A DNA stretch of 64,000 bases. Origin: Apostichopus japonicus. Its lineage: Eukaryota > Echinodermata > Holothuroidea > Aspidochirotida > Stichopodidae. Under the pieces are notes generated by a model. It searched no databases. It had not been told where the DNA came from and saw only the letters and a list, made by a program, of their open reading frames with translations. Where the stretch lies: NCBI RefSeq assembly GCF_037975245.1, contig NC_092581.1, forward strand, positions 12,427,303-12,491,302, in the 5' to 3' direction. Positions 24,481 to 50,600 of the stretch are shown here, piece after piece (position 1 is the first letter of the stretch; the number at the start of each line of letters is the position of its first letter). The position numbers and the translations under genes are program-made.

Positions 24481-27400
24481 TTCATGCATATACATACATA
24501 TATATACACTGTACACCTGTGTTTATATAAACATGTATGCTTACTTACACAAGCTGCTGTGTTTCGTTAGAGTTATGATGCTTCCTCTTATGTAAGAGCT
24601 TCAGCACAATTAACATTAGTTTCTTCAAGAAGAAATATCATAAACCCTTGACTGTACACCTCCAGCAAGGTTTTCCAGTTTTGCCCAAAATGATAAAATC
24701 TTGATTAATAGAGCTACTAAATAATGTTTTTTTTAACTACTGTCATAGAATCAAAAGAGCATGTCAACATTTAGCATCGATTTCCCAGATACTCACATAG
24801 TTCACTGCAAAGTAACTAATTTTACAATAGTATTTTGACATGCAGCAAGTGAGCTGCTGTAAATGAAAAACTGCGATTTGAGCAGAACCGGCTCCCATCC
24901 CATTGGAACCCAAAATTTGCGTGACAATGAGAACTCACATGAAAAAACAAAGAAAATTAATTCAAAATTTGTAACTTCCTGTTATGTTTACAGTTACGAA
25001 GAATTCTGCGCCCACTATATCCAAAACTGGTGGTCTAAAATCCGAAGGAAAGAAAGAGGTAGCCATGATTCTGTAAAGTTAGCAACCACGTCCGCTGTCC
25101 AGTCCGTCTCCGTGGTGATATCTCCTAGCGCAGCAGCGAGTCCGTCCTCAAAACCGAACCGCCAACCGAAGACGAAGGTACGAGAAGGTCCCCTTCAGCA
25201 AGGAGAAGCAGCGCGTTTGATTCAGAGATCCTGGAGAAGACACATCGTAAGTTCATTCTACTCTTGTTTGAGCCAAAGTAATACCCTAAGGCTGCTGAAT
25301 ATTGAAGTGTAAATTGTTGAGGACGAGTTTTAAAATTAAGAAAAGAAAAAACAAAACATGCACACTATGGAAAGCCGTTATTTCAAGCGTAATCACAAAC
25401 AATAGTGCATTGATATGTTCTAGTTGTAATGTTCTCCCCAAGCGTTTGGATATTTCATTTTATTTTTATTTCACCTTTTTTTTGGGCTACTTATTAACTT
25501 TTTTTTTCTTGTTTATATTATTGTATATCGTGTTGCTAAGGACGAAAGCCATTTTCATTGATCACGACTTCGGAGACATCACATGTACAGCTGCACTGCA
25601 AGAGGAAATATATATTTATTACCTCTACGTACAGTAAGAGCAAGTGATGGATGAATAAATATGCCCTAAAAAAAATTTTAAAAATTTTAAATTAAAAAAA
25701 GTAAGTGAATTGTTGAGACAGTGAGTCTCTTCCCAAACAGTGTTACTGTCTCTGGGTTTTAGAAACTTTGTAACCAGCTGCTGATGAAATATTTTTTCTC
25801 TTGTTTTTCTTCCCCTAAGATAATTTTTTTTTTAGATCATCTTCTTTTCATCCCATCTCTGTTGTATTGTTTGCAAGATGCAAATACCGCCCCACAAACT
25901 GTCGCTTCTTTTGCTCGATGTCATTTTCCATCTCTCACAGGACATCCAGGTGTATCGATACTATCGTGACTTGATCAACTTCAGATGTTGCGGCGACCCT
26001 GCCCTGATGCTCCGCTGCATCAACCCGAGGGAATCCAAATTGCTGGACCCGGCTGCAGGCATCCACATCAAGTTCAGATTAGCAGGTGTAAGTCCATCTC
26101 ATGTATTTACCGTCTCATCACAACGACATATATATATTCAATTATTCAAATATTATATATATTCATATATTCATGTATTCATATCATATATATATTAATA
26201 TATACATATATATCAATATTCATGGGCCACAAAATGTAATGGTGGTTGTTGTTCTTCTTTAGTGGTCTTGTATGGTGAAATTTGAACAAACCCTGGACAT
26301 TTCAAATGGTCAAGTGTGCCATAATGGACTAATATGCCATTAGTACACAAAATAGGAACAACGCCGAGCAAATAGTGCCTCAAATCGAAGGGAAAAATGA
26401 AATGGTCCGCGTCCGGAATGTTTCATAGCTTGATGAGTCGCTAAATGTGGTGCTGCAATGAAAATTTGCTTCTCTGTAATTATATGTAATTTAGATCTTC
26501 CTGCAAGCAGGAACTCGCGAAGAAGCCATCATTGGCTTATCAAAGCCACAAGCTGACCGAAGTCAGTCTATTAGATTCATATTAAACATCCATGATTATG
26601 AATTGTCAATTGTCAACAACTCTGTAACGAGACGACATACATTAATCTTGGGGTGACTCGAACTCGGGACCTTAGGATTGAAAGGCACCGGCCTTAACCA
26701 ATGAGCTAACACTCCTTCTTGGACGTAATCTGCCAGTAATTACAGTAATCTGCCAAACATGGAGCCCTGTAGAATACCCAATGTTCCTATTTGTTATCTT
26801 AGAAGTTTTAGAGATTGTTAACTCTGTTTCTCCAGTAAACTGTTCAGTGGTACTTTCTAAGCAGGGAACAGACTATAAAACTCTTTAATGTTAATTGAAC
26901 AGTATAAGATATTACTGTTAAAGTCACCACTGTTAACTGAGGACGGCACACAAGTACAGTTGGGTTTGTGAGATGTCCCAGTGTTTTGAGATATCACATC
27001 TGTAAGACATTCTCCTTTTGAGGTTATCTGTGTTTACAAAGTTTTAGTCTTAATTGCTTCAAAGAATGTATTTTTGCTTTTGTTCTTACTGACTGCACTG
27101 TAAAGTCATAGAAAAATGTGTTCCCTATCTGACAGTGAACTTCCTGATACATTCCCAATAACCAAAATCATTTGCAAAACTTTTTTTTAAATGTTTTTAA
27201 ATCTGATGTCATTTATGTCACTCAATGCCTCTCTTTGTTCAGCATGTATATAAGTTTATGTTTTAGTAAAAATATGGCGATATTTAGTTGTCTCTCTTCT
27301 TTTCCTGTTTGCTCAAGTGTAAAACAGAGCATATATATTCCTTTTGGCCTTTTGGCTAAGATCATGTGTAGTATCTGTTCTTTCAGGGAATGGTGATACA

Positions 27401-30400
27401 CACCTGACGATGATCACACAGTCACAGTTCCGATGCAAGGGGACTGGGGTTAGAAGCGGATCAGTCGTTCAGTAGTTTGGTTTTCGTGCCCAGGTTCTCT
27501 CCTGGGCGACTTTTTCTTAAAAAGTATATTCCTTTTGGCTAAGATCATGTGTAGTGTCTTTTCCCTTTCGAGGGGAATGATGATACACATCTGACGATGA
27601 TCACACAGTCACAGTCTCGATGCAAGGGGACCGGGGTTGAGAGCGGATCAGTCGTTCGGTAGTTTGGTTTTCGTGCCCAGTTTCTTTCCTGGGTGTCTTT
27701 TCTTTAAAAAAAAATATATTCATTTTGTTGCATTTTGTTTATATTTTGTTTGACAGACAAAGTTCCCTCCAAACATATATTACAAGATCTTCACCCATCG
27801 GAATATTGTCGACATGTGCGCGAACAGTCCTAAAGACTACACAGATGCGAGAGCTAAGAGGAAAGCAGCCAGGGATGTACACAATAGACGAGGAGAGAAA
27901 GAGAAAGAGAAGAAAGATGAAGCTAGGACAGGGTGGTACCAAAGAATAGAAAACAATGGATGGAGACTGGTGTCAGATAGGGTGAGATATCCTGGGACGT
28001 GTTTACACTGTCACCTTTTAAGTTACTGTATGTAATTTAAGTTTGAGGGATCTTCTTCAAAGGCTAACTGAAATGAAAACGAACTAAGATCTACACATTC
28101 AACAATGGGAAGCCCCAAAAACAACTTTTGAACCTTTATTACCCCCAAAAAGAGCAAGATTTTGCCCTAGGGCTCTTGAAGGGAGATGTTTGCCATCAGC
28201 ATCATTATCACATTTTTTTACTAGTGATGCTTGTAGGTTTTTGTTCTGACATCTGATACATTGTCCTTGTAGTTATTGTTTTTGCTCTTTCTAACCATGT
28301 AAAAATTGTCCCCATTCGACGTTTTCTTCTTGTAGAAATCTGGTTTTCAAATTCACCAGTTTCACACCAAAAGTACCGTTTGTTTGAACGCATCAATATG
28401 GTAATTAAAGTAGTGCTGGCATATAGGCGAAACAGGCGACTTGAAGTTAGCACTCCCAATTCCGCAGCAAATACACTCTCACATGTACACGCACGTGTGA
28501 TTGCCTATTATATAAAACGCGACGTATATAGCCTACTGTACCATGCCCAGTTGGTATACGTATAGCGTTGCACATAATATACTCTCACACTCAAACCACA
28601 GTTCATAAACTGTTCTTCGAACTCGCTGAACTCACAGATCAAATTTACAGTAAAAGGAAACTTGAAAAGTATTCGGAACACCAAAAGATGAAACTTGGCG
28701 GAATCGATGTCAGAGCAGAATGTAGTACCGAGAAGCTTAGGCTTCGCAGAACTGTCCGATTGTAACGTTAGAGTAGCCTACATGCCAACATTCTTCGCAT
28801 TGGAGCTGGATAGCGCGATGTATAAAGAACGAAGAGTATGCTGTTAAATTTTATCTTGTATTACACAAAGACCACGTAACCACCGATCTACTACATATAT
28901 GGCGGCTTAAAGAGTTTTTGAAAACATATCTAATTTATAAGAAATTTCACCGAAAATTAAGTAAGAAATTTATCTGTATACAAACGCTGTTTTTGTTGTG
29001 ATTACTGTAGGTACTGTGCGAAGCGTGGGTTATGTCGCAATCTGCATTAGCATAGATGACGTCAAGTTCAGTACTGTTCAATCTTATTGGAAATGTCCAT
29101 CCTTAACGATTAAAAAATCGTTTCTCTGTCAAACGCAACATTAGGGTTCTCATACTTTGACAACATGTTTGGAAAATTATTTATCAATTTTTAAGGTAAC
29201 TTCTTTGGGCCACCAGACAATCCTTTTCAGTTTCTTTCTAGCTGATTCTGAAAGATGATGCTATAATGATATTCATTTATTTAATTTATTAATTTTTGTG
29301 TGTGTGTGTTCCCTATAGCTCATTCTAAAAGCTGACCAGGATCCAGTCACTTGGGAGTCGTCCAAGAAAACGCAAGAGTTCCATCATTCCAAGCTGAAGA
29401 GGAAAGTTGACGTTGAGAGGAAGAAGAGGCGGAGAAAGTTGGAGTGGATGCAGAAGATGTGAGTGTGAACAAAACGAGGAGAAACCCTAATTTTTTCCTT
29501 TTGCTTACTACATGTATTCAATTTGGCATACATATTTAACTATGGTTTAGTTTACTTTCATTAGATGGCTTCTGGTGTGATTAACTTTTGAAGGGTTTGC
29601 AATGTCCCAACATGTTGATATTTTCAAACAACGCAATTGCAACATAAATGTCTGGTATCTTAAGCTGAAAACTGAGTAGATAAGTATGCCTTGATACATT
29701 TATTACAATTTTTTTTATATAGGGATGTATTTCATAATTTGACGTCATCATGATCTTGTATCGCAGGTACCAAGAAGGAAAGACAGAGAGCAATACTAGA
29801 GGGAGACATACAGGATTGTTAGTAGAGGGCGCTGCATCGGGTATGTTAGCTGTCATGGATGAGATAGGACCGGATGCTGTGGAAGACTGGGAAGTGGATG
29901 AACTTTTAGAATGGACCAATGGCCTTAACTTTGATGAGTATGTCATGTTTACTTCAAAGCAGCTTAACATCTTGACGATACCCGCATAGTGCACAGACAT
30001 ATATTGTATGGACGTTGTACACACAGGCAGCAGGGGTGTGCTCAGGAATATTTTGAGTCCCAGTTGGATTTGTGCGATAGTGTGATCCACGTCCTGGGGG
30101 TGGGGTCTCAGGGGTGGGGGTGCCCCTCCCCTATGGAAAATGTTTGCAAATGAAGTATGCTTAGATGGCAAATGGTGCTATCTTCTTCCTATTCTGGTGC
30201 AAAATTCTCTGCCACCTCTCACCATGTTATGTTCCTGTATAATTCAAGCCCTGTTCATATTTCAACGTTTAGCTTACGTTTCTCGTCTCCTTTTGATATC
30301 CACAGCTATCTCACAGATTGGCAGGCAATAGCAACCAGTGCCAGCTCTGAGAAGTTAGCAGGTAGGGAATTAGTAAGACCCTCAGACTTAATCATTGGAG

Positions 30401-50197: not shown

Positions 50198-50211
50198 TAT
50201 CATATCACAAG

Positions 50212-50404
50212 ATCGCTTCTCGGCCTTTTGGCTAAGATCATGTGTAGTATCTGTTCCCTTTCGAGGGGAATGTTGATGCACACCCGACGATGATCACACG
50301 GTCACAGTCCCGTTGCAAGGTGAATGGGGTTGAGAGCGGATCAGTCGTTCGGTAGTTTGGTTTTCGTGGCCAGGTTCTTTCCTGGGCGACTTCTTCTTAA
50401 AAAG
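50212..50404 (+). mobile_element. U2 snRNA-headed SINE, complete copy with 14-bp TSD
   Basis: Starts ATCGCTTCTCGGCCTTTTGG, the exact 5' end of U2 snRNA. It follows U2 for about 44 nt (one change, ATCATG for ATCAAG), including GTAGTATCTGTTC. It then changes to a ~150-bp non-U2 body and 3' hairpin (CCAGG...CCTGG) ending TTAAAAAG. The flanks TATCATATCACAAG (50198-50211) and TATCAAATCACAAG (50405-50418) are a target duplication with one mismatch, showing retroposition. Confidence 0.93.
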
Positions 50405-50600
50405 TATCAAATCACAAGGTTTAATAATGACAGCTCCCCTGACACGACTTTCAAACAACGATATCTGGTTACCGGAGAAAACTTCTTACCAGTCGTTCTT
50501 CACAAAAGTCCCTGTCACATCATCTAAACATGATGGTTGTGTTAACTATCCCTTTAAGATAAAAAAAAAACAAGGACAATTTCATATATCAGCATTTATA

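Follow-up and report, generated by a model that had tools for sequence, protein, structure and literature searches.

An element of 193 bp at positions 50212-50404 of the stretch of Apostichopus japonicus DNA analysed here (C21:12427303-12491302, 64,000 nucleotides of a 671.6-Mb assembly in 35 contigs; hereafter the window) begins as U2 snRNA and continues as something else, which raises the question of how an RNA with such a head becomes mobile. The promoter elements of U2 and of other animal snRNA genes are external to the transcribed part; a copied head therefore cannot drive the next round of copying, which makes snRNA-headed SINEs a puzzle. Crocodilian SINEs with U1 or U2 snRNA heads were reportedly described by Kojima in 2015 as SINEU, and are said to have gained their heads by recurrent addition and to favour a Mariner element for insertion. 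SINEU is also named in a Repbase class list.

The element consists of a 45-nt U2 head and a 148-nt body and tail, with the boundaries that had been given in the initial annotation, and its flanking 14-bp duplications are identical at 13/14 positions (Table 1). The head had been described as the U2 5' end over 44 nt with one change; the assignment to the U2 5' end stood, while the match proved to be 45 nt long and exact, as the supposed change belongs to the host's own U2 (GATCATGTG). Aligned with the host's genuine U2 genes, as had been proposed, the copy is identical to both host U2 types read over nt 1-45 and diverges thereafter. U2 46-193 was rejected as the origin of the body, as 186/200 shuffles score at least as well in that comparison; the body is thus no ordinary continuation of U2. 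It recurs, as first noted, in two further copies in the window, which form a tandem pair with TATATTCCTTTT before, between and, at 11/12 positions, after them. The upstream member of the pair (27346-27524) belongs to a different head/body junction class, with a head that extends to around U2 nt 52 (TTCTTTCAG, lacking one T). Rfam assigns U2 in the window at 53.6 bits to the copy at 50212-50404 and at 47.6 bits to 27337-27430; at a permissive threshold, the element itself matched U2 only, with all other matches at E 2.3 or worse.

Table 1. Positions in the window of the U2-headed element and its two neighbours
Feature	Position	Strand	Basis or remark
5' target-site duplication TATCATATCACAAG	50198..50211	+	flank comparison
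Head, exact host U2 snRNA nt 1-45	50212..50256	+	host U2 alignment; Rfam RF00004, 53.6 bits
Body and tail, non-U2	50257..50404	+	first hairpin CCTTTCGAGGGG, central stem, 3' hairpin, A-rich end TTAAAAAG
3' hairpin CCAGG/CCTGG of the body	50370-50374 / 50381-50385	+	
3' target-site duplication TATCAAATCACAAG	50405..50418	+	
Duplication TATATTCCTTTT preceding the tandem pair	27334..27345	+	
Second copy, 5'-truncated at U2 nt 11	27346..27524	+	89.1% identical to the 50212-50404 copy
Duplication TATATTCCTTTT between the pair	27525..27536	+	its CCTTTT common to the start of the third copy
Third copy, 5'-truncated at U2 nt 13	27531..27709	+	90.0% identical to the 50212-50404 copy
Duplication TATATTCATTTT following the pair	27715..27726	+	11/12 match to TATATTCCTTTT

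The genome search for body copies suggested by the initial annotation returned at least 1,588 places for a 41-nt body pattern and 1,104 for the 37-nt main head/body junction, each with up to 3 mismatches allowed, and none for the reversed control of either pattern. The family is thus far larger than three copies derived from one duplication, and the proposal of a SINE family with a U2 head is supported by the 1,104 junction places, the flanking duplications and the 45/45 nt shared with host U2. For closer study, loci L001-L030 were taken as the best full-length matches and L061-L090 as exact junction matches in contig order; through this choice, the divergence and start figures that follow are weighted towards young, full-length copies. 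Copies differed from the consensus by 0.5-12.2%, with a median of 2.6% (55 distinct near-full copies, picked for likeness), and the 5' starts of 68 distinct copies were spread over nt 1-98, with 20/68 at U2 nt 1, 46/68 at nt 1-5 and none at nt 24-59. Flanking duplications exceeded the 99th percentile of mismatched flank pairs in 34/62 copies, a figure in which L015 and L016, one duplicated locus, count as two. The consensus RNA folds better than 200/200 shuffles (z -4.3). The element is SINE-like, being short, dispersed and non-coding, with flanking duplications and 5'-truncated copies, and by its head, which equals host U2 over 45/45 nt, it is of the snRNA-headed type typified by SINEU.

SINEs inserted in SINEs were seen at L104, L085 and L095, in the first two in or beside the U2-derived head. 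Older, diverged relatives of the body occur at L015:1749-1865 (about 68% identity) and L095:236-302, the latter seemingly with traces of a U2-like head. Eight exact junctions about 3 kb apart at C5:11.04-11.07 Mb were suspected to be a master array. The two units read of these ~3-kb repeats (L095 and L096; C5:11042404-11066014) are near-identical, contain a SINE nested in an older diverged relative, and showed no U2 promoter; the cluster was rejected as a source and is a local duplication.

Copies with a promoter were found in the U2 genes themselves. Among the best 46 U2 matches, 42 lie in a tandem array at C16:31.015-31.156 Mb, mostly spaced by 645 bp, and four are dispersed on C15. Scanning the U2 loci for interrupted genes located the SINE inside genes of the C16 array at U2 nt 37/38. 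A pattern spanning the tail-to-U2 junction (46 nt, SINE tail plus U2 35-65, up to 3 mismatches) matched at seven places (control: 0), six in the C16 array and one in a decayed U2 gene on C20; in 7/7, U2 is entered at nt 35-38, depending on the assignment of shared letters, in agreement with insertion of Keno/Utopia type (U2 nt 38/39).

Three of the array loci (L060, L040 and L099) share a layout of U2 promoter, U2 1-45, full body, tail and U2 from nt 38. In L060, the tail TTCTTAAAA is followed by AGTATCTG and the remainder of U2 through nt 193; compared with an intact U2 gene, 500/500 upstream positions, the whole of U2 38-193 and 120/120 positions of the 3' flank are identical. L040 agrees with the intact gene at 499/500 upstream positions and differs from L060 in one head base; L099 resembles L060, with a different loop (CCCCTCGGG). 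In L100, the promoter and U2 1-52 precede a truncated body. L098 is a tandem pair, in which U2 as far as nt 40 leads into a truncated SINE that is separated by U2 38-45 from a second, full one. In L097, a truncated SINE follows a LINE 3' end and U2 38-52. No difference was found between the bodies of L060, L040, L099 and L100 (0/135; 0/122 for L100), and that of L098 differs at 1/135 positions. The array holds several recent insertions: that the 5' ends differ at a shared 3' site argues for separate events, and, as U2 arrays homogenise, some of the resident copies may be array duplicates of one insertion.

The C20 locus carries an element of the main type, a headed SINE after U2-like sequence to about nt 25. 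It is better read as a decayed U2 gene, heavily decayed in its upstream part, than as a read-through U2-SINE-U2 retrocopy, which is less favoured as the U2 part extends to nt 193 and is followed by about 23 nt similar to the 3' flank of a C15 U2 gene. The body of the largest subfamily starts with CCCTTTCGAGG, and the combination of promoter, head and main-type body was found at no place in this assembly, with either the C16-type or the C15-type U2 promoter; the source of this subfamily may be lost, polymorphic or unassembled. A search of the SINE loci and the window with both promoter types (300 bp) gave no convincing match (best E 0.059).

Resident and dispersed copies are closely tied. The resident junction type (44 nt) was found at 190 places when 3 mismatches were allowed and exactly at 54; L060 is one of the 54, and three of the other 53, all dispersed, were read (L103, L104 and L105). 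L105, on C9, is identical to L060 at 188/188 positions from U2 +1 to the A-run, and its duplication, in an AT-rich tract, is weak evidence; L103 agrees at 187/188 and is flanked by a 10-bp duplication (ATTACTAAAA); L104 agrees at 186/188 and adjoins U2-derived target letters of another SINE. The dispersed copies L021, L030 and L083 differ from the residents at 2/135 positions. A linked pair of variants, at consensus positions 117 and 137 (table 42, 4, 3, 7; Fisher P 1.4e-4), is shared by resident and dispersed copies.

The dispersed copies also bear the mark of the U2 target. After the A-run, 59 of them show G (49/59), T (46/59) and A (46/59; P 1e-14), corresponding to U2 nt 36-38, and then T (32/59; P 2e-4), C (24/59; P 3e-4) and T (28/59; P 0.006), corresponding to nt 39-41, with no match signal at the positions of nt 42-45; this set leaves aside L016, L069, L072 and L073 (duplicate loci), L081 (no A4 run) and matches ending before query nt 188. 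Either the RNA extends into U2 and priming takes place there, or the motif is one favoured by the nicking enzyme, and both readings fit a U2-directed machine with relaxed choice, similar to crocodilian Utopia as described in the available part of PMC4640811. Tandem copies with a duplication between them were found in the window pair, in L006 and L019, and within U2 itself in L098; an insertion leaves AAAAAGT/AT, close to the AGT/AT of U2, so that an inserted copy recreates a likely target, which fits the tandem copies.

Candidates for the helper machinery reside in the same array. With one C-terminal query, 17 LINE copies with open frames of 1,038-1,173 aa were found at C16:31.01-31.17 Mb, all in the same orientation as the U2 genes. 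By identity to the query they form four groups (100-98, 44, 39 and 29%). The LINE 3' ends of three of the four groups abut U2 nt 35-38, the same site as the SINE. ORF1 of the array LINEs contains zinc knuckles (zf-CCHC) and a C-terminal zf-RVT (Pfam), domains that suggest Keno-like (Tx1) elements rather than Utopia. The initial annotation had looked to LINEs sharing the CCAGG/CCTGG hairpin tail of the SINE; there was none among the LINE 3' ends read (L034, L042 twice, L058), which share only the A-rich end and the target site with it. The array as a whole (C16:31.00-31.17 Mb; L034, L041, L042, L058, L060) is heavily invaded, with at least four groups of long-frame LINEs, and some U2 spacers carry other LINE pieces, such as the RVT_1 domain of another LINE in L037. 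Distant relatives of the array LINE, many with frames of about 1,149 aa, cluster at C17:15-26 Mb, C11:13-14.6 Mb and C16:26-31 Mb, possibly in pericentromeric regions or in another target array.

The SINE occurs with several head/body junctions. A further variant (CCCTTCGGG) accounts for at least 41 of the one-mismatch matches listed for the resident type, and a third class (U2 to about nt 52, TTCTTTCAG, then GGAATGG), which includes the 27346 copy, was found at 30 places with up to 2 mismatches; at three mismatches its places overlap the resident class. As the 5' junctions of LINEs in the array vary in their U2 position as well (nt 25, 30, 31, 45 and 50), the classes fit repeated acquisition of heads from U2 genes with a variable cut of the upper strand.

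The U2 head is thus the 5' end of the target gene, which brings its promoter along, and the sources apparently reside in U2 genes. We regard it as very likely that the family is a SINE whose sources, resident in U2 genes, use the U2 promoter and the machinery of U2-specific LINEs, and whose dispersed copies are mostly dead ends. Source copies would sit in the tandem U2 genes at nt 37/38, the site of the array's U2-specific LINEs, and transcription from the U2 promoter would cover U2 1-45 and the SINE body and continue through U2 nt 38-193. Such an RNA is predicted to begin at U2 +1 and to carry nt 1-45 at its 5' end, which is also how the dispersed copies begin. Proteins of the U2-specific LINEs would reverse-transcribe it in a target-primed reaction that begins near the AAAAAGU/AUC boundary. 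Copies landing in U2 genes would become new sources with an intact promoter; those landing elsewhere, at sites like the start of the U2 target, would carry the U2 1-45 head and no promoter, and would mostly be dead ends. Homing would restore the exact arrangement because the U2 head of the RNA matches the DNA upstream of the nick. The initial annotation had asked how a head of Pol II type could yield a mobile RNA, and promoter-intact copies inside U2 genes are the likely answer. It is also reasonably probable that the element is a promoterless SINE for which a stay in a U2 gene is obligatory: inserted there by a U2-specific LINE, it would take up a Pol II promoter and be copied as a U2-SINE(-U2) chimera, homing would restore both promoter and head, and AGTATC half-targets at the head and 3' end of off-site copies would provide new landing sites and thereby tandem copies.

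Among other explanations, a template switch is unlikely; here, a LINE reverse transcriptase would jump from a SINE body RNA, made from another promoter, to U2 snRNA, and the resident copies would be incidental. LINE-1 chimeras with U6 and other small RNAs are known (available part of PMC13174262), the products would likewise start at U2 +1, and several junction classes do exist. However, the thousand-copy classes share one fixed junction, which implies that what is amplified is the chimera as such; this junction also occurs in U2 genes together with an intact promoter and a duplication of U2 38-45; and 0/68 distinct copies start at the body boundary, most of them having been picked by near-full-length match or junction pattern.

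It is quite unlikely that the landings in U2 are passive and that the active RNA comes from dispersed copies through an unrecognised internal promoter, of Pol III or Pol II. SINEs as a rule have internal promoters, and the largest subfamily is without a resident source in the assembly. Yet an A/B-box promoter, as found in the heads of the classical Pol III SINEs (SINE1-3), was rejected for this family, in which the head is U2: the best A- and B-box matches in the consensus are no better than those in shuffles, and T runs of 4, 4 and 5 at consensus nt 15, 150 and 180, kept in 49/54, 59/68 and 59/68 copies, respectively, would stop Pol III, making transcription by it unlikely. The U2 promoter, for its part, lies outside the transcribed part, so that dispersed heads cannot drive transcription. 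That the copies are merely processed U2 pseudogenes or a variant U2 gene family, as the Rfam label of the head would have it, is wholly improbable and already refuted by the alignments, since the body is unrelated to U2 46-193 and common to at least 1,588 places, and genuine host U2 genes continue as U2.

Reading the family as a U2-resident SINE invites comparison with other parasites of multicopy RNA genes. Non-autonomous R2 derivatives in 28S rRNA genes stay in the rDNA and arise by internal deletion of the LINE; a literature search on them returned no paper. Like the SINE, they are non-coding and would be co-transcribed with a multicopy RNA gene, whereas the U2-headed SINE is unrelated in its body, resides in a Pol II snRNA gene, and has more than 1,000 off-site copies that carry off the 5' end of the host gene. 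With SINEU, compared by description only, it shares the form of a short non-autonomous element that reportedly also has the U2 5' end as head; it differs in occurring in an echinoderm and in having sources seen inside U2 genes with a promoter. Keno and Utopia are LINEs that insert into U2 genes, and echinoderms are among the hosts of Utopia (available part of PMC4640811). They have the same target, the published U2 3' flank starting at nt 39 and that of the SINE at nt 38, a one-base ambiguity, and weakened targeting with off-site copies at U2-like sequence, as in crocodilian Utopia, and tandem insertions are likewise described there (PMC4640811). In contrast to the SINE, which at about 193 bp encodes no protein, they encode their own. 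The available part of PMC4640811 describes no SINE of the U2-resident kind, and our literature search, with most subscription journals and the Repbase entries outside its scope, returned neither a U2-headed SINE from an echinoderm nor a SINE resident in U2 genes. U1/U2-headed SINEs and U2-directed LINEs are thus known; new here is an unusually direct answer to the origin of the head.

If the SINE homes to U2 genes and uses their promoter, the puzzle of the head would be resolved by source copies that can be seen, and the origin of the head becomes testable. The family would then be a case of a SINE parasitic on an array of spliceosomal RNA genes, at the cost to the host of interrupted U2 genes, and the first such family in an echinoderm within the literature searched.

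Two observations concern the mitochondrial sequences of the assembly. On the mitochondrial contig C35, COX1 reads sensibly with the echinoderm code, AAA standing for Asn at motifs such as GGFGNW and PRMNN. Several mitochondrial COX1 pieces were also found on C29 (31,219 bp), which is either a nuclear copy or a duplicate of the mitochondrial genome, tandem or due to assembly.
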